Positions 1 through 24,611 of a stretch of 28,401 nt of DNA are shown here, one piece after another. The DNA lies in the IMG/VR virus record IMGVR_UViG_3300046559_000652, positions 1 through 28,401 of that record; one strand, written 5' to 3'. Source of the stretch: a virus. Made by a program: the position numbers and the translations under genes. How positions within the stretch are numbered: the stretch's first letter is position 1; every line of letters starts with the position of its first letter. The notes beneath the pieces are model-generated. The model made no database searches and was not told the DNA's origin. It saw only the letters and a list, made by a program, of their open reading frames with translations.

Positions 1-525
1 AACCCGTGGCCCCTGGAGTTCACCTGTCGATTTGGTTATCCAGCAATCAATATCGAGCTTGCACTTCATAGCGAGCCTATCGAATTCATGGCCGGGCTGG
101 CCGCCGGCAAGCCGCCGAAGTCACGGCGATTGAATGAGGTCGCGGTCGGGGTCGTCATGGCCCTCCCGCCGTATCCGTTCGGCCATGAACGCCCGGATGA
201 GGTTGTAAACGTCCCCATCTGGGGGGTAACCCCAGGCATTGAGGACAGCCTTCACTTTTGCAATGTCGCGATGGGCAGCGTACCAAACCTCGGCGGCGGT
301 GGGCTCGCGAACGCTTCTCATCTGGTCACCTCCGGTTCGTACGTGCTGGTCTCCACCGGCACGGGCGAGAGCGTCGCCGAGGCGCGCGGGAAGGCGTATC
401 GCGTGCTGGACCGACTGACCATTCCAGCCTCGCCTTTTTTTAGAATTGATATAGGTCAAAGGCTCCGCGGCCAACTTCCTAAACTTCAGAAGGATGGATA
501 CGCTACCGGGCTTTATTACGCCTAG
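1..525 (+). CDS. PurD-like ATP-grasp ligase, C-terminal part (5' end outside window)
   Basis: The frame is open from base 1, so this is the last 174 residues of a longer protein. It aligns by eye with the end of phosphoribosylamine-glycine ligase (PurD, GAR synthetase), which joins glycine to phosphoribosylamine in purine synthesis. Residues 6-13 (EFTCRFGY) correspond to the metal-binding EFNARFGD of PurD. VAVGVVMA near 40-47 matches the PurD GVVMA strand. The end, with VLVSTGTGESVAEA, KAYRVLDRL and the FFRIDIG segment, matches the canonical C-terminal domain ending in FYRxDIG. Oddities are Thr for the metal-ligand Asn and Tyr for Asp in the EFNxRFGD motif, and an extension after the usual end. 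It may be a real PurD or a phage ATP-grasp ligase with another substrate. It converges on the methyltransferase at 537. Confidence 0.75.
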   Translation, partial: NPWPLEFTCRFGYPAINIELALHSEPIEFMAGLAAGKPPKSRRLNEVAVGVVMALPPYPFGHERPDEVVNVPIWGVTPGIEDSLHFCNVAMGSVPNLGGGGLANASHLVTSGSYVLVSTGTGESVAEARGKAYRVLDRLTIPASPFFRIDIGQRLRGQLPKLQKDGYATGLYYA

Positions 526-551
526 ATGTCGTCACTTCATTCTGCGACATC
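525..551. terminator. Possible hairpin between convergent genes
   Basis: GATGTCG at 525-531 and CGACATC at 545-551 form a perfect 7-bp stem with a 13-base loop. It lies where the rightward PurD-like gene and the leftward methyltransferase meet. There is no clear T-tract on either side, so a bidirectional terminator is only a guess. The CGACATCGG half recurs about 30 bases further on inside the methyltransferase end. Confidence 0.25.
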
Positions 552-1607
552 GGGAATCTCCATCGTGTCGATTGCGACATCGGCGAATAGCGGGCCATCG
601 CGGTAGATGCGGCGCTCCGACATGTCGGCATATAGCGGGTTGAGTTCGATCAGGATGGCGTCACGGCCGAGCCGGTCGGCGACAAGGCCGGCCGTGCCAG
701 CGCCGCCGAATGGGTCCAGAACCGCGCCCCCTCTCGGGCAGCCGGCCAGGATGCAGGAATCAATTAGGCCAACAGGGAAAGTTGCGAAATGCGCTTCAGC
801 GTATGGATTGGTAGCTACGGTCCAGACCGAGCGTTTATTGCGCGTTTCCGGGCATGCTTGGTTCCAGTCAGCGAGCCCAATTCGGGTGCGCCGGTCGTTC
901 GTCTCGGATACGTCCTGCCGGTCTTTTGCCGCCGTGCCGTAGCTGTGGAGTACCTGGCCGGCCTTGACTGCCGGTTCCGCAATCGCCGCCGCGTCGTAAT
1001 AGTACCGCTCGCTCTTGCTCAGCAGGAACAGGTATTCGTGCGCCTTGGTGCAGCGGTCGGTGACGCTTTCGGGCATCGGGTTTGGCTTTGACCATATGAT
1101 GTCCTGGCGCAGCCACCAGCCATCGGCGCGCAGCGCGAAGGCCAGCATCCACGGGATGCCAATCAGGTCTTTTGGTTTGGTGTCGCCAAAATTGCGGCTG
1201 CGGCGTGCCTGCCTGGTATTGTAACTATCGCCGATATTCAGCCAAAGCGTGCCATCCTTCCGCAGCACGCGGCGCACCTCGCGGAACACCGCCACCAGCG
1301 CCGCGATATAGGCGTCCGGCGTCGCCTCAAGCCCGATTTGGCTGTCAATGCGAGTTGCGCCACATATACGGCATCGGCTGGCGTCTACGCCGGGCCGGAC
1401 CCCACTGACGATAGCGCGGGGCGCTTTATTGTCTTGAACTTGGCCTCCGATGCTGTGGGAGCAATTTTGCTCGCCGCCTTGCCATTGCGCCGTGCCGTAA
1501 TCGCGCAAACCGTAGTACGGCGGCGAAGTCACGCAGCAATGCACGCTCTCGGCCGGCAGCCGCCGCAACTGGTCGAGCGCGTCGCCGACGATCATACGGA
1601 CGCTCAT
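537..1607 (-). CDS. DNA methyltransferase, beta-type (N4-C or N6-A)
   Basis: This 356-residue protein transfers a methyl group from S-adenosylmethionine to an exocyclic amino group in DNA. The catalytic motif TSPPY is at residues 27-31, near the N-terminus, and the SAM-binding motif DPFGGAGT is at 298-305, near the C-terminus. That order defines the beta class, which includes N4-cytosine and N6-adenine enzymes; TSPPY is common among N4-cytosine enzymes. A Cys-rich insert with CSHS and CRIC (roughly residues 49-86) may hold zinc. It is the last gene of the leftward early operon, and its ATG overlaps the TGA of the 9-codon ORF upstream. No cognate restriction gene is seen, so it probably protects phage DNA or regulates. 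The specificity matters if the genome really contains base Z. Confidence 0.9.
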   Translation of the reverse strand: MSVRMIVGDALDQLRRLPAESVHCCVTSPPYYGLRDYGTAQWQGGEQNCSHSIGGQVQDNKAPRAIVSGVRPGVDASRCRICGATRIDSQIGLEATPDAYIAALVAVFREVRRVLRKDGTLWLNIGDSYNTRQARRSRNFGDTKPKDLIGIPWMLAFALRADGWWLRQDIIWSKPNPMPESVTDRCTKAHEYLFLLSKSERYYYDAAAIAEPAVKAGQVLHSYGTAAKDRQDVSETNDRRTRIGLADWNQACPETRNKRSVWTVATNPYAEAHFATFPVGLIDSCILAGCPRGGAVLDPFGGAGTAGLVADRLGRDAILIELNPLYADMSERRIYRDGPLFADVAIDTMEIPDVAE

Positions 1608-6542: not shown

Positions 6543-6626
6543 ATGAGAAGACGACCGACATACCTGACGCAGTACTGGTTCGACGCGCTGCTGCGGCGGC
6601 GGCGCGGGCGGCAGCGGCGGCGATGA
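6543..6626 (+). CDS. 27-residue arginine-rich peptide
   Basis: ATG at 6543 opens a 27-codon frame, beginning MRRRPTYLTQYW and ending with a run of Arg. A GAAGG ribosome site precedes it, and its TGA overlaps the ATG of the next gene (6623-6626). Eleven of the 27 residues are Arg, so it could bind nucleic acid, or simply be a coupling ORF. Confidence 0.5.
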   Translation: MRRRPTYLTQYWFDALLRRRRGRQRRR

Positions 6627-7339
6627 ACCACATCGTGGCGATCTCGGGCGGCAAAGACAGCGTGGCTATGGCGGTCATGCTGGCCGAGCAGCACCCCGAG
6701 ATTGAGTTCACCCGCGTCTGCACGCCGACCGGGAACGAGCCGCCGGAATGGTACGCCCACATGCGGGCGCTGCGCGACAGGATAGGCCCCATCACCCCAA
6801 TCATGTATCCGGGCGGGCTCGGCGGGCTGATCGAGCAATGGGCGGCGTTGCCCAACTGGCGGCAGCGATGGTGTACTCGGGTGCTCAAAATAGAGCCGTT
6901 TGCCGCCTACCTGATGGAGCACTCGCCCGCGCGTTTCTATGTGGGGTTGCGGGCAGACGAGGAAATCCGCGAGGGCGGCGACTACCAAGAGGTGCCAAAC
7001 GTCGAGATGGTGTTCCCGCTCCGGGATGCCGGCATGAACATCTCGGATGTGCGCGAGTTTCTGGCCGTCCGAGGCATAGCCATCCCGCGCCGCACCGACT
7101 GCATGGTCTGCTTCTTTCAGCGGCTGATCGAGTGGTGGGAGCTTTGGCAGAACAATCCTGACGCCTACGCCCAAGGCGAGGCGTGGGAGGCCGCGACGGG
7201 CCACACGTTCAGATCGCCCAGCAGAGACAGCCAGCCCGCCAGCCTGCGTGAGTTGCGCGAGAAATTCGAGACGGGCTGGGTACCGCGCGACACACGCGAT
7301 CCGATCAATGCGATGCAGTGCCGAGTTTGCCGCCTGTGA
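6623..7339 (+). CDS. PAPS-reductase-family protein (ATP pyrophosphatase fold)
   Basis: A 238-residue protein of the phosphoadenosine-phosphosulfate reductase family. SGGKDS at 8-13 is the PP-loop. WCTRVLKIEPF at 83-93 is the family's conserved Cys/Lys segment. Two CxxC pairs, C160/C163 and C233/C236, could bind a metal or an iron-sulfur cluster, and classical PAPS reductases lack this arrangement. Phages carry many such proteins; proposed roles range from sulfur metabolism to DndC-like DNA modification, and the sequence does not decide. It is coupled to the Arg-rich ORF upstream and followed by a helicase, so a DNA-related role is plausible. Confidence 0.85.
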   Translation: MNHIVAISGGKDSVAMAVMLAEQHPEIEFTRVCTPTGNEPPEWYAHMRALRDRIGPITPIMYPGGLGGLIEQWAALPNWRQRWCTRVLKIEPFAAYLMEHSPARFYVGLRADEEIREGGDYQEVPNVEMVFPLRDAGMNISDVREFLAVRGIAIPRRTDCMVCFFQRLIEWWELWQNNPDAYAQGEAWEAATGHTFRSPSRDSQPASLRELREKFETGWVPRDTRDPINAMQCRVCRL

Positions 7340-7421: not shown

Positions 7422-8285
7422 ATGGCGGCGATGGCGGGGCCTGATGTCGCGTATCTGCGCGAGCTTGGCAAACCAACTGGCGACGATCTGGGCTGGATCA
7501 GTCCGGGTCAGTGGGAGGGCAGGGAGCCGCCGCCGCGAGATTGGATGCTGCATGGCTGGATGGCCGCTGGCACGGTCGCCATGCTGTCCGGCGACGGCGG
7601 GCAAGGCAAAAGCCTGATAGCCCAGCAGTTGTGCACGTCGGCCGTACTTGGCCGGCTTTTTTTTGGCCTCGCCTGCAAGCCGGGCCGCGCGCTCTATCTT
7701 ACTGCCGAGGACGATGCGGAGGAGTTGTGGCGTCGACAGCGCGACATCTGCCGGATGATGGGAACGACGATGGCGGATCTGGACGATGCCGGGTTGCGTC
7801 TCGCGCCGCGCATCGGCCGCAACAACGCGCTGGCCACGCTCGACCGCAAGGACTGGCGCATGGTGCATACCGATTTTCTCGCCAGGAACTGCCGGCGCTG
7901 CCTAGACGAGGGAATAAATTGGGTGGTCATCGACACCGCGACGCAGACGTTTTCGGGCAATCAGAATGACGAGCAGCAGGTCATTCAGTTCTGCAACATC
8001 CTGAGACGATGGGCCGTATTGATGCGCGGGGTGATTCTGCTCATTAAGCACCCGAGCGTTGCCGGCCGGGCTCTCGGCACTGGCGAATCGGGCTCGGTGG
8101 CGTGGCAAAACAGCGTGCGAGCCCGCATGTATCTGCACAAGAACAAGGACGGGGGGCTCGGGCTTGAGCTTATGAAGTCGAACTATTCCAAGGCCGGAGA
8201 GCGTTTGCCGGTCAGGTGGGAAAAGGGCTGTTTCGTGCAGGACATTCCGGCAGCATCAGCACATTACGGCTACCGCGACGATTAG
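7422..8285 (+). CDS. RepA-like hexameric helicase / AAA_25 ATPase
   Basis: A 287-residue RecA-fold ATPase resembling plasmid RepA helicase and the AAA_25 family. The Walker A motif GDGGQGKS is at 57-64. ALYLTAEDD follows the P-loop strand, as in RepA. INWVVIDTATQTF at about 158-170 is Walker B, and LLIKHPS around 205 is the sensor strand with the conserved His. It probably acts in phage DNA replication, as the helicase or helicase loader. The start at 7422 has GGGGGA upstream; a second ATG three codons later is also possible. The next gene follows after a few bases. Confidence 0.85.
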   Translation: MAAMAGPDVAYLRELGKPTGDDLGWISPGQWEGREPPPRDWMLHGWMAAGTVAMLSGDGGQGKSLIAQQLCTSAVLGRLFFGLACKPGRALYLTAEDDAEELWRRQRDICRMMGTTMADLDDAGLRLAPRIGRNNALATLDRKDWRMVHTDFLARNCRRCLDEGINWVVIDTATQTFSGNQNDEQQVIQFCNILRRWAVLMRGVILLIKHPSVAGRALGTGESGSVAWQNSVRARMYLHKNKDGGLGLELMKSNYSKAGERLPVRWEKGCFVQDIPAASAHYGYRDD

Positions 8286-12864: not shown

Positions 12865-13155
12865 GTGAACGAGGATCCTTGGGCGGTCTACGTCCCGATC
12901 ATAACGGGGCTGTTGCGCACCGTGATGGCGGCGATGGGCGGGGATTGGGCGTTGAGCGCCAATTCGAGCCAAGTGCAGTCGGTCGCCGGGGCCATCGTGG
13001 TGCTGCTGGCGGCCGGCTGGTCGGCCTGGCACAAGATCGACGCTGCCCGCAAATCGCACGCATCCTCGGTGGAGTCGGCCACCCAGTCGGCCGCAGCGAC
13101 TATCCAACAGGGGCGCCCCGTTGCGGTCGTCGCCCCGACCCAAACCGCGGCGTGA
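12865..13155 (+). CDS. Holin-like small membrane protein
   Basis: A 96-residue protein with two hydrophobic segments: about 8-26 (YVPIITGLLRTVMAAMGG) and 36-56 (SVAGAIVVLLAAGWSAW). They are followed by KIDAARK and a hydrophilic tail. This layout fits small phage holins of the Pam3-gp28 type, with the WSAWHK end of the second helix. Such proteins form the membrane lesion at lysis. The start is GTG at 12865. It is followed by a lipoprotein, but no endolysin is adjacent, so the lysis role rests only on topology. Confidence 0.6.
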   Translation: MNEDPWAVYVPIITGLLRTVMAAMGGDWALSANSSQVQSVAGAIVVLLAAGWSAWHKIDAARKSHASSVESATQSAAATIQQGRPVAVVAPTQTAA

Positions 13156-13403
13156 GACACACCTTATATACTGTGCTCTGTGCGGCGCTGCTGGCGGGGT
13201 GCGCCACGGCCGATGTGACGCGCAGCTGCGTCGGGACTCAGGCAATGGCCGCGGCGGTGCGGCCGGGGCTGTCGGCGTCCCCCGAGGCGTCTCTCGCGGC
13301 CGATGCGGTCCTCTTGGGATCGGCGGTGTGCGGCACCCCGCAATACGCGGTGGCGCGCGAGATCGTGCTGGACTGGGCCAGGAGCAAAGGAATCCTGCGA
13401 TGA
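13152..13403 (+). CDS. Small lipoprotein
   Basis: An 83-residue protein with a lipoprotein signal: basic start (VRHT), hydrophobic core and a perfect lipobox LAGC with Cys17. After lipidation about 67 residues remain, with two further cysteines that might form a disulfide. It starts by GTGA overlap with the holin-like gene and ends by ATGA overlap with the beta-helix gene. Rz1-type spanin lipoproteins are small and proline-rich; this one is not, so that role is doubtful. Confidence 0.65.
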   Translation: MRHTLYTVLCAALLAGCATADVTRSCVGTQAMAAAVRPGLSASPEASLAADAVLLGSAVCGTPQYAVAREIVLDWARSKGILR

Positions 13404-14986
13404 AGCGTATTGTTTCGGTCGTGGCCCTGGCGGGGCTCCTGGTCTTCGGCGGCTGCGCGCGGGCCGACATGTTCCAGAACATGAGCAACGCGAAGATCGG
13501 CGCAGTCGTCTCGGCGGTATCTCTTGGCTTCAAGGGCGACGGCGTGACCGACAATACCGCGAAGATGGCGGCCCTGTTTGCCAGGACCGACAGCCCTACG
13601 GTGTACTTCCCGTCCGGCACCTACATGATGAGCTGCCCATCCGGTCTCACCGAGACCTTCTCGGCGGTGTCGCTGCTCGGCGCGGGCGCCGACAGCATCA
13701 TCAAGTTCCCTCCTGGATGCGTTCTCTCCAGCACGATATTTATGTGGTACGGAGCCAATATCGGAGGTACCAGGGTCAGCAACCTGACCTTCGATTTGAA
13801 CACCCCGGCAACGCCAGTCGCGCCGACCATGCTTCTGTACTTCGCGGCCCACAACACGAACATAAACGGCGGCAGCTTCGACCACCTGAATGTCATCAAC
13901 GGCACCGGATTTATGTATCTGTTGTATGCCGAGGCGGCCAACGGGTCATTGCGCAACTTCCATATGGACGACAACTACCTGCACATCGCCGCGCCGGACA
14001 GTGTGCATGGCAACCAGTGTGCCGCGACCTCGATGCAGGCCGCCAACTCACTTATCACGGACATCACGATCGACCGTAACATCTGCGTCAATACCGGGAT
14101 ACAACTGGATGCCGTGAACAGCTCGGTGAGCTTCAACGACATCAGCGGTTACGGGTTTGGTACGGCAATTTTTAGCCCGTACTGGACATCGAACCACCTT
14201 ATGGTAGTCGGCAACCGGATGCACGACAGCGCCCTTACCCGCGACAGCAACAACGTGTTGGCCGGCGGCATGGAGGCGGTAGACAACTCGGTGATCTGCG
14301 AAAATATGTTTTACAATCTTGGCGGGGCCGCAATAAACAATTTTGGCAAGAACAGCCTTATATGCAACAACGTAGCTTACAACAATGGCAGCAGTCCCTT
14401 AGCGGTGGCGGCATCGCCGGAGCAGGCGGCTTTTCACACGATAATATTGGGGGGTCACAAGTTTGGCGAGAACACCCGCTACGTCGGGAACCAAGCATGG
14501 GACGACCGGGTGACGCCAAAGCAGCTTTACGGATATTTTGATTATGCAGGAGATGCTGTCACCGGGATTACGTTCAGCGGTAATAATTTCCACGGTTATC
14601 TTTCCGGGAAGGCTTATGCTATAAATCAGGGAACCAACCCGGACCCGAATGTAGAGATTATGTTGGATTGGGTAACGCTGGGCACCGCTTACGAATACCG
14701 GGTGTCGGAGATCGCGTTTACCGGCATAGATCCCTCGTATACTCAATTCAAGCTAAATTGCGGCGGCATCGGACCCTATCCGGCCGGAACCGTGAAGGTG
14801 CAGTTTGGCACGGGCGCGGGTCCCACCTGGATTTCTGGAGCGACGGATTATCTGACCGGCGGCTCGCAGACCGGATTTACGGTCGGGGCCGTCGCGACGA
14901 CGACATTCAACACCAACAGCAACGGGATGGATATCACCGCGACGCAGTGGGCGCCGGCTACTCGCAGACCAGCAACAATATGTTGA
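13400..14986 (+). CDS. Right-handed beta-helix protein (pectate-lyase-like) with export signal
   Basis: A 528-residue protein. Residues 1-23 form a signal peptide (MKRIVSVVALAGLLVFGGC, then ARA before Asp24). The FKGDGVTDNTAKMAALF segment is the typical entry of pectate-lyase/tailspike beta-helices. The middle has repeated N-rich turns (NNVAYNNGSS, DRNICVNTG, GNRMHDSAL) of parallel beta-helix coils. The C-terminal part is beta-rich. It could be a tailspike or depolymerase, but an export signal is unusual for a virion protein. After residue ~510 the frame runs into TRRPATIC and stops, while the -1 frame continues as plausible protein (see the next entry). It starts by ATGA overlap with the lipoprotein gene. 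Confidence 0.75.
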   Translation: MKRIVSVVALAGLLVFGGCARADMFQNMSNAKIGAVVSAVSLGFKGDGVTDNTAKMAALFARTDSPTVYFPSGTYMMSCPSGLTETFSAVSLLGAGADSIIKFPPGCVLSSTIFMWYGANIGGTRVSNLTFDLNTPATPVAPTMLLYFAAHNTNINGGSFDHLNVINGTGFMYLLYAEAANGSLRNFHMDDNYLHIAAPDSVHGNQCAATSMQAANSLITDITIDRNICVNTGIQLDAVNSSVSFNDISGYGFGTAIFSPYWTSNHLMVVGNRMHDSALTRDSNNVLAGGMEAVDNSVICENMFYNLGGAAINNFGKNSLICNNVAYNNGSSPLAVAASPEQAAFHTIILGGHKFGENTRYVGNQAWDDRVTPKQLYGYFDYAGDAVTGITFSGNNFHGYLSGKAYAINQGTNPDPNVEIMLDWVTLGTAYEYRVSEIAFTGIDPSYTQFKLNCGGIGPYPAGTVKVQFGTGAGPTWISGATDYLTGGSQTGFTVGAVATTTFNTNSNGMDITATQWAPATRRPATIC

Positions 14987-15569: not shown

Positions 15570-16373
15570 CTACCGAACCACAGCACTCGGTAGGTTTGCA
15601 CGGGCTCTTCGCTGGGGCAAGGGAAACCTTTGCCTTGCGAAGGAGTGATCCATAGCGGCCTGCATTTCATCCAATATCCGATATGCCGCGTCTCGCCTGC
15701 TCCCATAGGGAGGCTTAATGATTGGCCGCCCAATGACGAGATAGTCTGCTCCAGCCTCTATCGCTTGGGACGGTGTACTCGTGCGATTTTGATCATCGCT
15801 CTGGCTGCCAATTGGCCGCACCCCCGGCGTTACAATTAAGAAATTTGGGCGACCCCGCATCGCTCGGCTAACCGCGGCAACTTCCCTTGGAGAACAAATC
15901 ACTCCATCTGCGCCAGCGGCGGCGGCGATTAAAGCGCGCTTGCACACGAAGTCTTCTACCGTCATGTCATCGGGTGTATTGTACTCTTGCTGCATATCAT
16001 GCTTATCGTGATCGGTCAGCAGAGTCACCGCCAATATATTTGGAATCAAGCGGCCTTCCCGCCCGGCCGCCGCTGCAGCAATCGTCCCGGTCATTCCCAT
16101 TACAGTAATAAATTCAACGCGCAAATTTGCAGCACGGGCAGACATGCGGCGCATCGTGTCGCCAATGTCCACGCTCTTAAAATCTAAAAAGACTTTCTTG
16201 CCTTCTCCAATCAGATCATCCTCTATGAAGCTGATCAAGCCGGTCTCAAATAGGTACGGCCCAACCTTATAATGCGATACCGCATCCCCCAGCTCGGCGA
16301 CAACGGCTCTTGCCTCTTGCAGCCCCGATACATCAAGGGCAACGATCAGGCGCTCGTGCGCTAAGCCGGCCAT
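15570..16373 (-). CDS. pyrF: Orotidine 5'-phosphate decarboxylase
   Basis: A 267-residue OMP decarboxylase that converts OMP to UMP, the last step of UMP synthesis. LIVALDVSG at 9-17 is the first strand; YKVGPYLF carries the phosphate-side Lys. VFLDFKSVDIGDT holds the catalytic Asp-Lys-Asp (DxK..D). GVICSPREV, LIVTPGVRP and DYLVIGRPI are the later conserved strands, and DQNRTSTPSQAI matches the substrate-closing loop. It resembles the archaeal/bacterial type and is about 20 residues longer at the C-terminus than usual. GGGAGA lies upstream of the ATG. It is leftward in a rightward late module and uses A/T-ending codons (GTA, TTA, CTA, ATA) more than its neighbours, which suggests recent acquisition. 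Confidence 0.93.
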   Translation of the reverse strand: MAGLAHERLIVALDVSGLQEARAVVAELGDAVSHYKVGPYLFETGLISFIEDDLIGEGKKVFLDFKSVDIGDTMRRMSARAANLRVEFITVMGMTGTIAAAAAGREGRLIPNILAVTLLTDHDKHDMQQEYNTPDDMTVEDFVCKRALIAAAAGADGVICSPREVAAVSRAMRGRPNFLIVTPGVRPIGSQSDDQNRTSTPSQAIEAGADYLVIGRPIIKPPYGSRRDAAYRILDEMQAAMDHSFARQRFPLPQRRARANLPSAVVR

Positions 16374-16588
16374 AGCCCAATCTCCCTATTCGGGGCCATA
16401 ATGGGATCAGAACGTAGCGAATCGCCTCCCATTCGCGAACCCGCAAAAGATCGCACTCTTAGGATAACCCCCGAAATCTGCGGTTGTCACCGCAAGCCAC
16501 TGAATTGTACACCCAATTATCCCCATACGGAATCGGCAGAATTGCTTAGCTTTTGCTTAGATATCCACTACCAGCCAGCCGATCGGCA
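16374..16588. promoter_or_regulatory. Divergent region between pyrF and terL
   Basis: This A+T-richer gap must hold the pyrF promoter and may hold one for terL. Leftward, GTGACA (16490-16485), 18 bases, then TATCCT (16466-16461) is a possible promoter. A perfect palindrome, TGCGGT..ACCGCA (16479-16494), overlaps its -35. Two direct copies of TTGCTTAG lie at 16542-16549 and 16553-16560, 11 bases apart, just before terL. Confidence 0.4.
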
Positions 16589-16592
16589 ATGA
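16401..16592 (+). CDS. Possible small ORF upstream of terL
   Basis: A 63-residue frame (start MGSERSESPPIREPAKDR) whose TGA overlaps the terL ATG (16589-16592). No domain is recognised, and codon use is poorer in G/C than in the late genes. The overlap favours a coupled leader ORF, but it also covers the putative regulatory sites, so it may be chance. Confidence 0.3.
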   Translation: MGSERSESPPIREPAKDRTLRITPEICGCHRKPLNCTPNYPHTESAELLSFCLDIHYQPADRQ

Positions 16593-18658
16593 GCGACGAC
16601 CCGCGCGCCGGCATTCTGGAAATCCTGGCCGCCGACAAGTGGTTGGCCCATTTCAACCTGTTCGCCCACAGGCACATGCACAACGGCCAGCCGGTGCCGC
16701 CCGCGGAGTTCCACCCTGATCTCGTCGCCGACTTCTGGAGCCGCGATCCCTACTCGATCCGCATGGCGTTCCGCGGTTCCGCCAAATCGACGATCGGCGA
16801 AGAAGACATCGTGCTGGCGGCGTGCCTCAGAATCCACCGCAACATCATCATCATCAGCTCGAACGAGACGCGGGCGGCCGAGCGGCTGGCAAGCGTCAGC
16901 TACGAGCTGACCCAGAACGATCTCCTGGTCGAGCTGTTCGGCGACTTGAAGTCGGACCCTTGGACCCAGACCAAGCTGGTGACGACGACCGGGGTGTGCA
17001 TCCAGGCGATCGGCCGCGACCAGGACATCCGTGGCATCAAGTATCTCGACCACCGCCCCGACCTCGTATTCGTCGATGACGTGGAGAGCCCCGAGAGCGT
17101 GCAGACGCCGGAACAGCGGCGCAAGACATTGCGCTGGTTCCTTTCGGAACTGCTGCCGGCCTGCGCCCCCGAGCGCAAGGTGCGCATCCGGGCGACGCCG
17201 ATGGACGCGGAATCCTTGCCCGTAAAGCTGTGGAAAGAGTGGGGCTGGCCGACCGAGATATTCCCGGTCGAGTACCTGGACGAGGCGGGCAACCGCAAGG
17301 CGTCCTGGCCCGAGGTCTGGCCGCTCGCCAAGATCGACAAGGAGCGCGCCGGCTACGAGAAGGTTGGCGAACTCGCGATCTGGCAGCGCGAGATGATGTG
17401 CCAGGTGTTCAGCGAGGCCGACCGGATCTTCAGCCGCGAGATGATCCGGGTAAACCCCAGAGAGAAAGCGTGGCAGGGGTGCTACGCGATGATCGACCCG
17501 GCCCGCACCGTCGGGCGCAACAGCGCCAGCACCGGCTGGGCCGTGTGGTCGTGGATCAACAACCGACTCGTGGTATGGGCCGCAGATGCGCAGCTTCTAT
17601 TGCCGGATGAGATTGTGGCTCTGGCGTTTGATATTGCCGAGCGCTTCGATCCGGTGTGGGTTGGTGTCGAGCAGGACGGTCTTGAGCAGTTCCTCATGCA
17701 GCCTTTGCGGCACGAGGCTATTAGGCGTGGAGTATTCCTACCGCTGCGAGGCATGCGGGCGCCGCGGGGTAAGCTTGATTTTATCCGAGGCTTGCAGCCA
17801 TTCTTCAGCGCCCGTGAGTGCGAGTTCGCCCAGCCACTCCCGGCGCTCACCGAGCAGCTCTTAAACTTCCCAACGGGGCGCATCGACGCGCCGAACGCGC
17901 TGGCCTACGCGCTCCAGATGCGCCCTGGATTGCCGATCTACGACGGCTTCGGCGCTGACAACATCGCGCCAGACCTCGACCACGATCCGACCAAGCCCCT
18001 GTTCCTGGTGGCGAATGCGACCGCCGGGATGGTGGCGGCGATGCTGGTGCAGCGCCACGACGACCGGCTGATGGTGCTGGCCGACTGGCTGCGCGAGGGC
18101 AGCGCCGCCGAGCATGTTGACTCTATCTATATTGAGGCGACGCTGCTGGCCGACATGCCGCGCGATCACGCGGTGAAACCCGAGCGGTCCTGGGACGCGA
18201 TGCTGAAGGCGCCGCTGCCGGATCGGGTGGTGACGAAGAACCAGCCGCCGACCTGGGTGGTGCCGGCGCATCATGGGGAGAAATACAACAATGTCGGTCT
18301 TATCCAATCTGTTCGCGCCATTCCGGCGGATATCCGAATCGGCGGCGAGGAGAACGCCGGCCAGATTCAGCTGCACGATCTGCTTGGCCGGCAGCATCGC
18401 GGGTTGCCCGCTGTCGTCGTGGGGGCAAGGTCACGTTGGACCCTGCGCGCGCTTTCGGGCGGTTACGCGAGAGCCCTCGTTCGCGGGCGTCTTCAGGACT
18501 ACGCTGAGGAAGGCCCATACCGGCTTCTGATGGAGGGGCTGGAATCCTTCCTCGGGCTCGCCCGTCGGCCGCAGCAGGACGACGAGGAAGACGGCCCGCA
18601 GCCGACGCGCGAAGACCGCTATGGCAATCGTTACAAATCTGCACTACCTTTCCGCTGA
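16589..18658 (+). CDS. terL: Terminase large subunit
   Basis: A 689-residue packaging motor that pumps phage DNA into the prohead and cuts it. Walker A FRGSAKST is at 61-68 and Walker B VFVDDVE at 160-166. The nuclease domain shows CYAMIDPART with Asp303 and GVEQDG with Glu361. This arrangement fits the T7/N4-like TerL group. The protein is longer than the usual 500-600 residues; the extra C-terminal part (from about 470) includes VANATAGMVAAMLVQ and an acidic, Gln-rich end. The ATG at 16589 is set by the ATGA overlap with the small upstream ORF; an in-frame ATG 12 codons earlier has no better site. It begins the packaging and head operon. Confidence 0.95.
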   Translation: MSDDPRAGILEILAADKWLAHFNLFAHRHMHNGQPVPPAEFHPDLVADFWSRDPYSIRMAFRGSAKSTIGEEDIVLAACLRIHRNIIIISSNETRAAERLASVSYELTQNDLLVELFGDLKSDPWTQTKLVTTTGVCIQAIGRDQDIRGIKYLDHRPDLVFVDDVESPESVQTPEQRRKTLRWFLSELLPACAPERKVRIRATPMDAESLPVKLWKEWGWPTEIFPVEYLDEAGNRKASWPEVWPLAKIDKERAGYEKVGELAIWQREMMCQVFSEADRIFSREMIRVNPREKAWQGCYAMIDPARTVGRNSASTGWAVWSWINNRLVVWAADAQLLLPDEIVALAFDIAERFDPVWVGVEQDGLEQFLMQPLRHEAIRRGVFLPLRGMRAPRGKLDFIRGLQPFFSARECEFAQPLPALTEQLLNFPTGRIDAPNALAYALQMRPGLPIYDGFGADNIAPDLDHDPTKPLFLVANATAGMVAAMLVQRHDDRLMVLADWLREGSAAEHVDSIYIEATLLADMPRDHAVKPERSWDAMLKAPLPDRVVTKNQPPTWVVPAHHGEKYNNVGLIQSVRAIPADIRIGGEENAGQIQLHDLLGRQHRGLPAVVVGARSRWTLRALSGGYARALVRGRLQDYAEEGPYRLLMEGLESFLGLARRPQQDDEEDGPQPTREDRYGNRYKSALPFR

Positions 18659-18921: not shown

Positions 18922-21117
18922 TTGTCCGACGCGGCGCCGGCCGAAGCGGAAGACGCCGCGCCCGAGAAGGCGCTGCCGTCGCGCGACCGGGATCTCTTAG
19001 GCCGTCGCCCGCGTGGCGGCGAGCCGAAGGGCGGCATCCGCGCCCATCTCGACAAGCTGTTCGATACGATTGCCAAGGGGTTCGAGGATCAGGCCGAGCG
19101 ATCGGACGCGATCCAGGACTATTGGGACTGCTACAACTGCGAGGCGAACAGCAACCGTTATTACAACGGCATCGCCGACATCTATTTCCCGATCATCCAC
19201 GATGCGGTAGAGGCGCGGGTCACGCGCTTTGTGAACCAGCTGTTTCCGCAGGGCGGCCGCTACGTCCAGGCGATCGACGCCGACGGTTCGTCCGTGCCGG
19301 CGCTGGTGGCGGTGTGCGACCACTACATCCGCCGCGCCAAGATGAAGACGGCAGTGGCCGCGGCGCTGGTTCGCAATGGCGATGTCGAGGGGCAGTACAA
19401 TCTCTACGTCGATTGGGCCGAGGTCGAGCGGCAGATTGTTTCACGTGAAACACACGGGCCCATCGACCCGCAAACCGGCCAGGAAATGCCGGGAGCCGAG
19501 ATCGAGGACATCACAGAAGAAGACGTGATCGAGGGGTTCCCGGTCTACGAGGTGCTGCACGACCCGGACGTGCTGGTGCTGCCGGCGACCTCCGATAGTG
19601 TCGAGGAGGCGCTGTCGGCGGGCGGCTGCGCGGTCGTGGTGCGGCGCTGGACCAAGGAGAAGATGGAGGTCCTGGCCGACGCGGATGCGATCCGCGAGGA
19701 CGAGGTGAAGGATCTCAAGGAGGAGATGGGTCGGGTCGGCCAGGAGAACAAAGACACCGAGTCGAAAATCCTGGCTCATGTCGGCGTCAAGAAGGGCGGC
19801 AAGGAGATATGGGTCTGGGAGGTCTGGGCCATGCTGCCGCTGACCGCCGAGGGCAACTACGCCAAGGACGGCCGCAAGCGCCTATGCCGGATATTCATGG
19901 GGCCGCGCCGCACGATGCTTGGGGCAAAGCGCAACCCGTACTGGAACGACCGCTGCCCATTGCTGAGTTGGCCGGTCAAGAAGATGGCGGGTGCCTTCAA
20001 GGGGCCGAGCCCGATCAAGTATGTGGAGAGCCTGCAATATGAAGCGAACGATGCGGTTAACGAGGGCGCGGATGCCGCAACACTTTCCGCCGCCCCGATC
20101 GTCGCAAGAGATCCTGAAAAGAGCAATGGACCGCTCGTCTATAATGTCGGGGCCGTTTGGGATGTCGCCCCCGGTTCGGTCGAGCTACTTACGTTCCCGG
20201 ATCTTACGCCTCGCGCGGCAACCCGCGTACAGATGGCCCTTCAGGCTATTTTCCAGAGCCTTGGAGTTAATCCCTCGATGCTCCCACAGCAGACGAGCAC
20301 CAGTAAGCGAAATCAGGCGCTGGTGGCTCAAGAGCAAGCCGTGGATCTCCTGACCACGGCCGAATGTGTCTCGGTCATCGAGGAGGGCATTCTGACCCCG
20401 GCGGTCGAGTGGACCGTCGATCTCGACTACCAGTTCCGCGACGCCGACATGCTGGTACGGATGTACGGCGAGGAGGGGCGGCGCGCCGTCATGCAGGAGG
20501 TCGGGCCCCTCCAGAACCGGGCCGGTTTCACCTTCGTCTGGCGCGGCGGCGAGCAGGTCAGGCAGAACGCCATGATGCTTCAGCAGGGCACCGGCATGCT
20601 GAACGTGCTGCGCGGCATGCGGCAGGAATTGATGGCCGAGGGCATGCAACTGCGCCTCGGCAAGGTGCTGACACAGCATGTATCCAATGTCTTTGGCCCC
20701 GAGATCGGGCAATCCATGATTGTCGATATGCGGGACAATCTGACGATCCCGCAGGACCAGGAAAACGGGATGCTGCTGGACGGGTTCGAGGTGCCGGTGC
20801 ATCCGCTCGACAACGACGAGCAGCACATCCCGGTCGCGATGCAGGCAATCCAGCAATCGGGCGATCCGCACGGCACCCTGCGCGTCCATCTCGCGGCTCA
20901 CCTTCAGCAGCGCCAGCAGAAAGCCCAGGCGCAGATGATGATGAAGATGCAGCAGCAGATGCAGGGCGCGGGCGGCCAGCCGCAACCCCAGGGCATCGGC
21001 CAGCCACAGCCTGGAGCCGCGCCCGCCGGCCCCCGTCTGGTGAAAGGACCGCCGGGACAAGTTCACCCGGACCAGATGCCGCGAGCCGGTGGGATTGCTA
21101 TGCCAAGAAAGTTCTGA
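18922..21117 (+). CDS. Portal protein
   Basis: A 731-residue podovirus portal, the dodecameric ring through which DNA enters and leaves the head. The N-terminal helical region (AHLDKLFDTIAKGFEDQ, DYWDCYNCEANSNRYYNG) and IYFPIIHDAVEARVTR are typical. The central part has PVYEVLHDPDVLVLP and the wing-like FMGPRRTMLG and NPYWNDRCPLLSWPVKK, which resemble the P22/N4-type portal order. The C-terminal 80 residues are Gln/Met/Pro-rich. The start is a TTG at 18922, three bases after the previous stop, since no ATG precedes the conserved N-terminal region. Its end overlaps the convergent purZ stop by 20 bases. A perfect parS palindrome lies within codons 172-177. Confidence 0.9.
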   Translation: MSDAAPAEAEDAAPEKALPSRDRDLLGRRPRGGEPKGGIRAHLDKLFDTIAKGFEDQAERSDAIQDYWDCYNCEANSNRYYNGIADIYFPIIHDAVEARVTRFVNQLFPQGGRYVQAIDADGSSVPALVAVCDHYIRRAKMKTAVAAALVRNGDVEGQYNLYVDWAEVERQIVSRETHGPIDPQTGQEMPGAEIEDITEEDVIEGFPVYEVLHDPDVLVLPATSDSVEEALSAGGCAVVVRRWTKEKMEVLADADAIREDEVKDLKEEMGRVGQENKDTESKILAHVGVKKGGKEIWVWEVWAMLPLTAEGNYAKDGRKRLCRIFMGPRRTMLGAKRNPYWNDRCPLLSWPVKKMAGAFKGPSPIKYVESLQYEANDAVNEGADAATLSAAPIVARDPEKSNGPLVYNVGAVWDVAPGSVELLTFPDLTPRAATRVQMALQAIFQSLGVNPSMLPQQTSTSKRNQALVAQEQAVDLLTTAECVSVIEEGILTPAVEWTVDLDYQFRDADMLVRMYGEEGRRAVMQEVGPLQNRAGFTFVWRGGEQVRQNAMMLQQGTGMLNVLRGMRQELMAEGMQLRLGKVLTQHVSNVFGPEIGQSMIVDMRDNLTIPQDQENGMLLDGFEVPVHPLDNDEQHIPVAMQAIQQSGDPHGTLRVHLAAHLQQRQQKAQAQMMMKMQQQMQGAGGQPQPQGIGQPQPGAAPAGPRLVKGPPGQVHPDQMPRAGGIAMPRKF
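19437..19452. promoter_or_regulatory. Perfect 16-bp parS-type palindrome inside the portal gene
   Basis: TGTTTCACGTGAAACA is a perfect palindrome identical to the ParB-binding parS consensus of many bacterial chromosomes. It covers portal codons I172-T177 (ATT GTT TCA CGT GAA ACA), all in frame. The third positions are A or T in a gene that otherwise prefers G or C. Confidence 0.85.
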
Positions 21118-22138
21118 CGCCCAATTCCGTGGCGATCAGAGCGCTTTGCCCAAGCCCAATGAAGTCGATCTTGCGACCGAGACTGCTTTCGATGTTTGAA
21201 ACAGCCGTCATGACCTTGTCCGTCGCGCGGCTATGACGGTGGCTGGTGAGGTCAAAGTAGTCGGCATGATTGAGTACGATCTGAGTGGGACAGTTCGCCT
21301 CTATGGCTTCGATAGGAATTTGCGCATCGAACCGTCCTACGCGGCGGATTTGGTCGGTAACGCTTGTACGTTCGATGAGGCTGGTGTCCCACCCTCCTTC
21401 GTGAGCCACCGTTTCCCAATCGATCTCGTGGGGGAGAGGGCCAGAGTCACCGGGTACTCTGATCGGGAAGGCCCGGAGCACCAAAACGATCTCTCGAACA
21501 TCCAGCGGGCTTAAACCGGCTTCCGCGACGAAGGCGGCTGCCGTAGTGTCTCGGCTCGTTGCCTTTGGGTAGTACCGGGAGTGCAGCAGAGAGAGCCCGA
21601 AGCCCTGTGTGCCCTCGATGATGACGCGCTCGCCGCGATTGAGGGTCGAGCGCAAAAACGAGCGGGCGGGTCTCAGGAACTTTTGCAGGCGCGGATCGTG
21701 TTGAGCGAGGCGCGCCGAGGAACGTCTGATAATCCGCTCAACCACAGCGGCACCTGTGCCACTTTGCGTTGATCCGATGCGTCCACGGAGTCCCCATTGG
21801 CTCTCGGTTTGTTTGTGCTCCTCTGTGATGATGTAGGCGTTCGGGTCGATCAGGAGCCGTTCCGCTGGAAGCTGTGCCACCTTCATTTCCGAAAACAGAA
21901 TATCGACATCGATGTAGGTGCCAGCCGCGAGCACGCAAATCACGTCGTCCAGCAAGGCCGGAGTCGGCAAGACCCGGAAAACGCGGGGTATGCCTTGCCT
22001 GTCGACGGCTGTATGCCCTGAGTTGGAGCCGCCAATCCGGATCGCGACGGTGGCGCGCCGCTCGCGAGCGATGTAGTGGGCGACCTTGCCCTTTCCCTCG
22101 GACCCGAACTGCCCGCCAACAATCACGGTGACCGGCAT
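21098..22138 (-). CDS. purZ: PurZ-type adenylosuccinate synthetase homologue
   Basis: A 346-residue member of the adenylosuccinate synthetase family, of the short archaeal/phage kind. GGQFGSEGKGK at 8-18 is the P-loop; PurA has GDEGKGK, and Ser13 replaces the catalytic Asp13 of E. coli. GGSNSGHT at 36-43 keeps the active-site His. GSTQSGTGAA at 122-131, EGTQGFGLSLLH at 175-186, SVTDQIRRVGRFD at 259-271 and LNHADYFD at 289-296 match further family motifs. The Asp-to-Ser change marks PurZ, which joins aspartate to dGMP to form the 2-aminoadenylosuccinate precursor of base Z. GGGAGGG lies upstream of the ATG. It is leftward between the portal and scaffold genes. Confidence 0.88.
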   Translation of the reverse strand: MPVTVIVGGQFGSEGKGKVAHYIARERRATVAIRIGGSNSGHTAVDRQGIPRVFRVLPTPALLDDVICVLAAGTYIDVDILFSEMKVAQLPAERLLIDPNAYIITEEHKQTESQWGLRGRIGSTQSGTGAAVVERIIRRSSARLAQHDPRLQKFLRPARSFLRSTLNRGERVIIEGTQGFGLSLLHSRYYPKATSRDTTAAAFVAEAGLSPLDVREIVLVLRAFPIRVPGDSGPLPHEIDWETVAHEGGWDTSLIERTSVTDQIRRVGRFDAQIPIEAIEANCPTQIVLNHADYFDLTSHRHSRATDKVMTAVSNIESSLGRKIDFIGLGQSALIATELGVRTFLA

Positions 22139-22149
22139 GGACCCTCCCG

Positions 22150-22422
22150 ATGTTGCCCTTGGCCTTACGCGCCTCTATCTGCGGACACCATATTATCCAA
22201 ATCCAGCATGGCGGCAGGAACCGAAAACGCAACCTAGTTCTCCTCTGCCGGGAATGTCATGCCCTCGTACACAAGGGATTGACATTCTTTCCCTTGACAA
22301 ACGCCAGCAGTAGAGACAAGCCTATCCGTGACCGCAATGCGGTACGTGCGCGCAACGTTAGAGCGCGGGGCCTAAGCGGATCGCCGACTGGCGTACAGCT
22401 TCAGGGAAAAGAGAATGTCTGA
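22150..22422 (+). pseudogene. HNH endonuclease fragment beside purZ
   Basis: The frame encodes CGHHIIQIQHGG, then NLVLLCRECHALVHKG, the second half of an HNH nuclease motif. The usual N-terminal zinc pair (CxxC before HHI) is missing, and the frame is closed by a TGA at 22129. No ribosome site is seen at the ATG. The later residues (from about 50) look random and overlap the scaffold start. It is most likely a truncated homing endonuclease remnant; the remaining gap up to 22414 has no other recognised feature. Confidence 0.5.
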
Positions 22423-23221
22423 TCTACCGGACACCGTCGATGACGGCGGCGAGGAGCTTGACCTTGGCGAAATCGAAGAAGGCGAAGCCGATGATGCCGC
22501 CGAAGGCGGGGAAGACGGCAGCGATGGCGCCGATGAAGAACATGCCGATGATGGCGAAGAAGAAGGGCAAGAAGGCGATGTAGAGCCGCCTCCGCCGCCG
22601 CGACAGGGGCGTAAATCCCAGGCGCAGCGGTGGCGGGAACGGGCCGAGCGGGCCGAGCGGGAAGCCGCCGAGGCTCGTGGGTTTCGTCAGGCGGCGGAAC
22701 ATTTCCAGCAGCGCCAGCCGCAGGTCGATCCGATGGCCGCGGCGAGGGCGCAGCAAGAGCGGGCCGAACGGCTGGCGATGATGAGCCCCGTCGAGGCGGC
22801 AGAGTTCATCGCCAACGAGCGGGCGCAACAGTTTCAGCAGGCGCTGCTGTATCAGCAGCTGCAAACCAGGGACGAGCTTGACCGACGCGATTTCAACCAG
22901 CAGGCCAGAACCTCTCGGCTGCACCAGCAGTACAAGGAGCGGGTCGAGTCGGAATTGGTACGCAAGCGTCAAGCTGGCGATCTCATGGCGAGCCGTGAGG
23001 AAATTCTGCACCGGCTGGTGGGCGAGGCTGCGATGGAGCGCGCCACCCGCGCAGCGCCGGCTCAGCGCCGCGCCGCTTCCCGCAGGGTTGCTGGGCAAAC
23101 GACACGACCGACAAACGCGCGGGGGGATGGCTCCGCTGGAAGGGGGCGGCCGGCACCGGGTTCGGAAGAACACGATGACATGCTGGTCGATGAGTATTTT
23201 CGCAGGGGTGGCAGGCTTTAG
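22415..23221 (+). CDS. Scaffold protein
   Basis: A 268-residue protein with the layout of a phage scaffold. The first 55 residues are very acidic, PPPPPRQGRK forms a hinge, residues 65-200 are long charged, Gln-rich helices with coiled-coil character (WRERAERAEREAAEARG; ELVRKRQAG), and the C-terminus is basic, then ends with DMLVDEYFRRGGRL, a typical short coat-binding helix. It would assemble with the coat and leave the prohead on packaging. The start at 22415 has an AGGGAAAAGAGA site. It is directly upstream of the major capsid gene, as expected. Confidence 0.8.
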   Translation: MSDLPDTVDDGGEELDLGEIEEGEADDAAEGGEDGSDGADEEHADDGEEEGQEGDVEPPPPPRQGRKSQAQRWRERAERAEREAAEARGFRQAAEHFQQRQPQVDPMAAARAQQERAERLAMMSPVEAAEFIANERAQQFQQALLYQQLQTRDELDRRDFNQQARTSRLHQQYKERVESELVRKRQAGDLMASREEILHRLVGEAAMERATRAAPAQRRAASRRVAGQTTRPTNARGDGSAGRGRPAPGSEEHDDMLVDEYFRRGGRL

Positions 23222-23264
23222 GGGGCTGGGCCGCGCCCTCCCCTTGACGCAGGGAGGGTTCTAG

Positions 23265-24611
23265 ATGGCCGTCACGGTAAATACGTCAGCCCAATTTGCT
23301 GGTGCAATCACCCGCAAGATAGACCGAAAGGCGTTGAAGGTTGCGCAGCGCTACCTCGTCCTGTCGCAATTTGCCGACAAACGGACGCTGGATCACGGTC
23401 ACGGCGTCACCTGGACCGCTAACCGCTGGAACCGCCTGCCGTTGCCGATCGCTCCGGTCGCTGAGGGCGTGCCGCCGGCACCGAACCAGCTGACCTTCAC
23501 CCAGGTCACCGGCATCGCCGTCCAGTGGGCCGGCCGCATCGTCTTTACCGATGTCGCGACCGTTGTCGTGCAGGACGATCTTCTAAACATCGCCTCCGAT
23601 CGCCTTGGTATGCAGATCGCGGAGACGAAGGAGCGCAACGGCTGGAACGCGATGATGGCCGGATCTCAGGTAAACTACGTCGCGAGCGCAGGGTCGCGCG
23701 CCGGATTGGTGGCCGGCAACAACCTCGATCCGACCACCGTCACCAGGACGTTCACCAACCTCAAGCTGATCGGCGCGCCGCTGTGGAACGGCCAGACCGG
23801 CGAGACGATCCAGCGCTCGATCGACTACACCGCGAAGCAGGGCGAGATGTCCCCCGGCCGGGCCGAGCATCTGGTCGCGATCACCAACCCGCTCTGCCTA
23901 CAGGACCTGAAGAATAACCCGCTGTGCGTGAACCTCTTTACGTTCAGCGACCACAACAAGATGTACACTAACGAGAACGGGTATTGGGGCGGACTTGTAT
24001 TCTGCGAATCCAACATCCTGCCCAGCTGGACCGGCGTCGCGCAGGTCAACGGCGCCAATGCCGTGGGCTCCTTGGGCACCGCCACCTACACGGTTCAGGT
24101 GACTGGCTGGGATAACCAAAATTTCTACGAGAGCCGGATCTACCAAGTGTCGGCCGATGTCTCGGTCACGACCGGCGGAATCTCGCTGACCACGCCGTCT
24201 ACCCCTGGCTTCACCTATGCCGTCTATATCGGCGTGGGAACTGGCGCGGCGCCGCAGAATCTTGGGTTGACGACATCCGGCCCAAGTAGCGGTCCCTATG
24301 CCGGCCAGGCGATCCAGATACCGCCATCGACCGCGGTTACGATCACTGACATCGGGTTGTTCCAAATCCCGCCGGCCGCTCCAGCGACGGGCGTGACGGT
24401 GTATCCCACCTTTGTATTCGGCAAGGATGCGTTCGCCACGCTGAAGCTGATGAAAGTCGAGTGGAACCGGCTGTACAATGCCGACAAGGCTGACCCGCAC
24501 AACCAGTTGCGGGTGATCGGCTACAAATACATGGAAGGCTGGGTAATTCTTAATCAGCAATTCCTTGCTCGCATTGAGAGCACTGCATCCAACACCGGAG
24601 CCTTCGGCTAA
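23265..24611 (+). CDS. Major capsid protein, N4-gp56 family
   Basis: A 448-residue HK97-fold coat protein of the N4-gp56 group. The N-terminus (KIDRKALKVAQRYLVLSQFAD), WTANRWNRLPLP and LTFTQVTGIAVQWAGRIVFTD are the conserved beginning. The end (FVFGKDAFATLKLMKVEW, then KADPHNQLRVIGYKYMEGWVILNQQFLARIES) is the conserved P-domain and C-terminal strand. Between them, about residues 265-385, a Gly/Thr-rich beta region (TYTVQVTGWDNQ, TYAVYIGVGTG) looks like an inserted surface domain. GGGAGGG precedes the ATG. Confidence 0.92.
   Translation: MAVTVNTSAQFAGAITRKIDRKALKVAQRYLVLSQFADKRTLDHGHGVTWTANRWNRLPLPIAPVAEGVPPAPNQLTFTQVTGIAVQWAGRIVFTDVATVVVQDDLLNIASDRLGMQIAETKERNGWNAMMAGSQVNYVASAGSRAGLVAGNNLDPTTVTRTFTNLKLIGAPLWNGQTGETIQRSIDYTAKQGEMSPGRAEHLVAITNPLCLQDLKNNPLCVNLFTFSDHNKMYTNENGYWGGLVFCESNILPSWTGVAQVNGANAVGSLGTATYTVQVTGWDNQNFYESRIYQVSADVSVTTGGISLTTPSTPGFTYAVYIGVGTGAAPQNLGLTTSGPSSGPYAGQAIQIPPSTAVTITDIGLFQIPPAAPATGVTVYPTFVFGKDAFATLKLMKVEWNRLYNADKADPHNQLRVIGYKYMEGWVILNQQFLARIESTASNTGAFG

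Follow-up and report, generated by a model that had tools for sequence, protein, structure and literature searches.

Does a PurZ-like gene reveal a phage whose DNA is built with 2-aminoadenine (Z)? This question is raised by the window studied here, i.e. a viral fragment analysed over its whole length of 28.4 kb, which encodes an adenylosuccinate synthetase-like protein and which an earlier note, on the strength of the P-loop GSEGKGK, had proposed as a candidate Z-genome phage. The literature consulted treats PurZ as an enzyme of phages that may derive from an archaeal PurA-like ancestor. Our analysis leads to a different emphasis: the purZ-like gene does not show that the DNA of this phage is built of 2-aminoadenine, and GSEGKGK alone is an unsafe criterion for calling Z-genome phages.

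A PurZ-type active site

The reading frame starts with ATG and is uninterrupted; the N-terminus of its product reads MPVTVIVGGQFGSEGKGKVAHY, with GGQFGSEGKGKV near this end. The protein has two matches far above chance level: one to the Pfam family PF00709 (E=1.2e-40), the other, with E=8.3e-68, to PHROG 1211, the phage PurZ family annotated as '2-aminooxy adenylosuccinate synthetase'. Residue positions were numbered on an alignment with PurZ of S-2L, with residue roles taken from PMC8342488. In this alignment, Ser13 of GSEGKGK (S-2L position 23) replaces the catalytic Asp of the PurA motif GDEGKGK, while the catalytic residues H52, T132, R146, Q190 and R280 (S-2L numbering) as well as the R240-V241 pair are retained. 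The intact frame, the PF00709 match and these retained residues confirm what the earlier note had described, namely a GSEGKGK P-loop within an otherwise preserved set of synthetase motifs.

The window residues S13, E112, A130, R222, I226 and T258 are those common to PurZ and PurZ0 and different in PurA, and S-2L position 273 is occupied by the Thr of PurZ and not by the Gly of PurA. Compared with archaeal PurA, the loop following the R-V pair has two additional residues in the window protein, in most of the bacterial cassette proteins described below and in PurZ0, and it is longer still in PurZ. Ser13 is thus not an isolated change, because five further positions and the 2-aa loop insertion are PurZ-like as well. 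At the nucleotide-donor position (S-2L 308), the window protein has Asp as in PurA and PurZ0, whereas PurZ has Gln or Asn (Q308 in S-2L). The best PDB matches of an AF2 model (pLDDT 92) are P. horikoshii PurA, PurZ0 (7vf6) and the phiVC8 enzyme (6fko).

Against a PurZ-type enzyme stands its score of 228.9 bits with the NCBIfam model amino_Aden_PurZ, which is below the curated cut-off of 300, together with a slightly higher score of 246.6 bits with the archaeal-type PurA model, also below cut-off (368). An alternative is that the gene has an auxiliary role of the PurA kind, raising the output of AMP, and that the enzyme works with Ser where PurA has its catalytic Asp. The donor-recognizing Asp is kept, the closest fold match is the archaeal short PurA of P. 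horikoshii (2d7u/5k7x), with which the window protein shares the short form, and the phage also has PyrF-like and PurD-like genes (table 1). This archaeal enzyme, however, has the catalytic Asp that the window protein is missing and is without the loop insertion and the PurZ-type positions, and the tree described below groups the window protein with PurZ and PurZ0, away from PurA. We regard such an auxiliary role as very improbable. By Ser13 and the other diagnostic positions, assignment of the protein as PurZ-type, and not PurA, is supported at the level of sequence.

A third branch of the PurZ family

The known subgroups, according to PMC12884076, are PurZ and PurZ0. A phylogeny, which the earlier note had named as a way to check its PurZ assignment, did not place the window protein among Asp-bearing PurA: PurZ, PurZ0 and the clade of the window protein are split from Asp-bearing archaeal PurA with a support of 100/99. 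The window protein itself falls into a third clade, made up mostly of sequences from bacterial chromosomes with a few from viruses (support 94/90, or 97/98 without L067, with a quick tree being concordant). AU tests reject its placement within PurZ0 (p-AU 0.013) and within PurZ (p-AU 0.0013), with these p-values being somewhat optimistic since the groups were named after viewing the first tree. The PurZ assignment therefore holds for the active site and for the grouping with PurZ and PurZ0 against PurA, but not for membership in either phage clade.

Comparison with the known enzymes gives the same mixed picture. PurZ0 (Wayne, Ghobes; 7vf6) shares with the window protein the P-loop Ser, the PurZ-type positions and loop, the donor-position Asp and a similar fold, but forms its separate clade with 34-39% identity. 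PurZ of phiVC8/VP5 and S-2L shares the Ser, the Thr273-type residue, a lengthened loop and the fold, but is likewise separate, differs at the donor position and is about 28-32% identical. Within the window's own clade, identity to PurZ-like proteins of bacterial cassettes reaches 59%. Because the nearest relatives are thus found in bacterial chromosomal cassettes and not in known Z-DNA phages, the sequence data suggest a third branch of the PurZ family, one that has apparently not been described. PMC12884076 mentions four sequences from archaea, with either Ser or Gly, that are basal to PurZ and PurZ0; these may be related to this branch. GSEGKGK or GGEGKGK is present in dozens of bacteria, and the viral members of the third clade (the window, L004, L005, L006 and L008-L013) are scattered in the tree, with L006 being sister to a Fibrobacteria sequence (support 100/98); this scatter, along with the placement of L006, suggests that several transfers may have occurred. 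The presence of this clade across bacterial chromosomes in conserved cassettes would change the view of how the Z-base pathway originated and what it is used for.

An insertion between portal and scaffold genes

In the window, the junction between the portal gene and the gene for a scaffold-like protein is filled by the purZ-like gene and a small HNH endonuclease gene (table 1). This bears out the location given in the earlier note, with the portal match being weak and the scaffold recognized by position; its 'podovirus', by comparison, has a basis limited to weak portal and SU10-adaptor matches. In related phages, the flanking proteins are readily found: the portal is 73% identical to that of L026/L027 and 58% to that of L030, and the scaffold-like protein is 58% identical to that of L026/L027. 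In L030, the portal-scaffold gap of 118 bp is too small for an HNH gene, and PF00709 had no match in ten related phage records. GC content is 0.597 in the purZ-like and 0.549 in the HNH gene, as against 0.64-0.66 in portal and scaffold genes. An assembly chimera is ruled out, because a separate contig of 4762 b from another metagenome (L003) is 100% identical to window positions 19701-24462. A scan of the window for promoters and terminators as moron signals gave none above chance. Taken together, the purZ-like and HNH genes are a moron between portal and scaffold.

The orotidine 5'-phosphate decarboxylase gene of the window is likely to be another moron. The PurD-like gene at the contig edge looks like a gene of the phage lineage and not like host flanking DNA, because related phages carry a match.

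Table 1. Position of genes in the window and of related features in other loci.
Feature	Position	Strand	Match or remark
PurD (GARS) C-terminal domain	1-525	+	at contig edge; matching gene in related phages
DNA N6/N4 methyltransferase	537-1607	-	unmatched in related phage loci
PAPS-reductase-family protein	6623-7339	+	PADLOC SspD model, E=2e-43
AAA_25 (RepA-type helicase-like) replication ATPase	7422-8285	+	PF13481, E=1e-29
Pectate-lyase-like protein, possible tail spike	13121-14986	+	unmatched in related loci
Orotidine 5'-phosphate decarboxylase family (PyrF-like)	15570-16373	-	PF00215, E=4e-40; GC 0.549; no match in related phage loci
Terminase large subunit	16553-18658	+	phrog_38, E=5e-49
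Portal protein	18922-21117	+	phrog_1216, weak; left flank of insert
purZ-like gene	21098-22138	-	346 aa; GSEGKGK; third PurZ clade
Small HNH endonuclease gene	22150-22422	+	PF01844, E=4e-9; divergent from purZ-like gene, same insert
Scaffold-like protein	22415-23221	+	right flank of insert; identity inferred from position
Major head protein	23265-24611	+	phrog_1357, E=9e-24; 78% identity to L026/L027
Counterpart of the window PurD gene	L031 1135-3408		757 aa
Kinase-PurZ fusion arrangement	L128 8077-10992; also L154-L156		with DUF7002 and mostly YfbR-like HD gene
Conserved protein beside alphaproteobacterial cassettes	L044 10144-10914; also L063, L064, L069, L070		about 250 aa; no Pfam match for the L044 member

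PurZ-like proteins in bacterial cassettes

The bacterial relatives were analysed in 33 loci (L041-L073), of which L073 has a broken frame and some are cut by contig ends. The recurrent run consists of a protein of 625-930 aa (32 of 33 loci), the PurZ-like protein, a protein of approximately 300-435 aa (32 of 33) and a deoxynucleoside kinase matching PF01712 (19 of 33). The first protein combines an exonuclease of the RNase_H_2/YprB type (PHP in L061) with a weakly matching DUF429 and a P-loop kinase, with acidic and Walker-A residues being conserved. The third has the dCTP deaminase/dUTPase fold; the long tail behind it is helical and includes a hydrophobic stretch that we read as a membrane anchor. 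A separate full-length PurA is encoded in 11 of 12 tested cassette genomes, with only a fragment in the twelfth. In the literature searched, which covered few subscription journals and some texts only in part, we found neither a description of such PurZ-like cassettes nor a report of PurZ together with a dCTP deaminase.

Cassette carriage is sporadic: among 399 genomes of one family, eight had the cassette (the query's own genome included; identity 54-100%), and among 58 genomes of one genus it was only the query's own. Some cassettes adjoin genes for type I restriction, a type IIG enzyme or LmuB (Lamassu), and PADLOC matched 78 families among cassette neighbours versus 17 in a control set, a difference that is suggestive only, with nine loci each and redundant models. 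pAgo-type matches were discounted as a defence signal, as they occur in cassette and control neighbours alike. For the PurZ-like protein itself, PADLOC gave no match to any model.

In a second arrangement, a kinase is fused to PurZ in a protein of 530-680 aa, which occurs in two genomes of the Rhizobium genus set and in three of the 399. It is followed by DUF7002 in all five cases and has a YfbR-like HD gene nearby in four of them; in phage VP5, the annotation of the DatZ counterpart notes a similarity to yfbR. In the exonuclease protein of the first cassette, the kinase end is a relative of the fused kinase (E about 1e-6 to 1e-9). The pairing of PurZ-like proteins with a kinase in two arrangements would fit a dedicated phosphorylation of the PurZ-like product. 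A gene with a RelA_SpoT domain lies near the fusion in L128.

A tentative reading, which we consider possible though the less probable side of an even bet, is that these are mobile anti-phage cassettes that make a 2-aminoadenine nucleotide, with phage PurZ and PurZ0 being relatives and the present phage having captured the PurZ-like part. As a component of this reading, held just as tentatively, the putative anti-phage cassette would comprise the PurZ-like protein, a dedicated kinase, a dNTP-hydrolase-like protein and the exonuclease. Rather unlikely, in our estimate, is the further step that the moron serves counter-defence or superinfection exclusion, i.e. that the PurZ-like subunit was borrowed from such a cassette in order to interfere with it or to turn its chemistry on competing phages. 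The clade is mostly cassette-borne and sporadically carried, some cassettes lie near restriction and Lamassu genes, and of the cassette genes the phage carries the PurZ-like one alone, without those for the exonuclease-kinase, the DCD-like protein and the deoxynucleoside kinase. However, the defence role of the cassette is itself putative, its PurZ-like part is without a PADLOC model and the neighbour comparison was small.

Partner genes and the Z-genome reading

In phages, purZ usually adjoins datZ and mazZ. Phages with PurZ0 have DutZ, to which DUF5664 and a PolA are added in Wayne. The window gave no match to PolA, HD_3/YfbR type, dNK, DUF5664, MazG or dUTPase, in a search whose HD_3 and MazG models miss some known partners and which was run without a separate DUF550 search. 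The statement of the earlier note that DatZ, MazZ and DpoZ are not found in the window is thereby borne out at the level of the profile families HD_3, MazG and PolA. This absence is limited to the window, as the record is a fragment: related phage records are 40-48 kb long, a good part of the genome may be missing and partner genes could therefore be elsewhere.

A true Z-genome phage, with adenine being fully replaced and with dATP hydrolase, dGTP pyrophosphohydrolase and Z-polymerase encoded in the missing part, would agree with the PurZ-type active site and with the fragmentary record. Moreover, S-2L does without DpoZ and has PrimPol beside SSAP and exonuclease genes, somewhat like the window. 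However, no PolA was found in six related phage records, and HD_3, DUF5664, MazG and dUTPase had no match in the related records; the purZ-like gene is a lone insert missing from the relatives, and its product lies outside both Z-phage clades. Nor does the Ser by itself prove a Z genome, because bacterial cassettes share it. With its nearest kin mainly in bacterial cassettes and its motif in dozens of bacteria, the Z-genome proposal of the earlier note finds little backing, and we rate it as improbable.

What a lone PurZ-type enzyme could do

The reading that we favour, with moderate confidence and on grounds of sequence comparison, is that the phage has taken up an active PurZ-type synthetase of the third clade as a moron, leading to partial A-to-Z substitution or to a disturbance of the dGMP/dGTP pool, and not to a full Z genome. 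Against an active PurZ-type synthetase speak the Gly in place of Ser at position 13 in eight of 32 aligned bacterial members (24 have Ser) and the PurA-like Asp at the donor position. The enzyme would join aspartate to (d)GMP; from the product, N6-succino-2-amino-(d)AMP, dZMP and dZTP could then be formed by PurB and kinases of the host. The relatives of the enzyme reside mostly in accessory nucleotide-metabolism cassettes of bacterial chromosomes, and the phage would have acquired its gene together with the HNH gene.

According to PMC8342488, the Klenow enzyme of E. coli does not discriminate between A and Z, PurZ, DatZ and MazZ together caused 12% of plasmid adenine to be replaced by Z in E. 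coli, and incomplete sets gave less Z, with the full set being toxic. Therefore, a lone PurZ-type enzyme, without the known partners or a Z-selecting polymerase, could give rise to partial substitution through a non-discriminating host polymerase or, alternatively, disturb the dGMP/dGTP pool. The phage might thereby gain protection against nucleases, damage its rivals or interfere with a cassette of the host. A full Z genome would be possible only with further genes that supply the rest of the pathway. Such a case may be seen elsewhere in the third clade: a viral record of 35 kb (G017, with locus L011) holds a PurZ-like gene together with PolA and MazG, so that in this virus the third-clade enzyme may be part of a more complete pathway, and L011 is a better Z-DNA phage candidate of this clade than the window.
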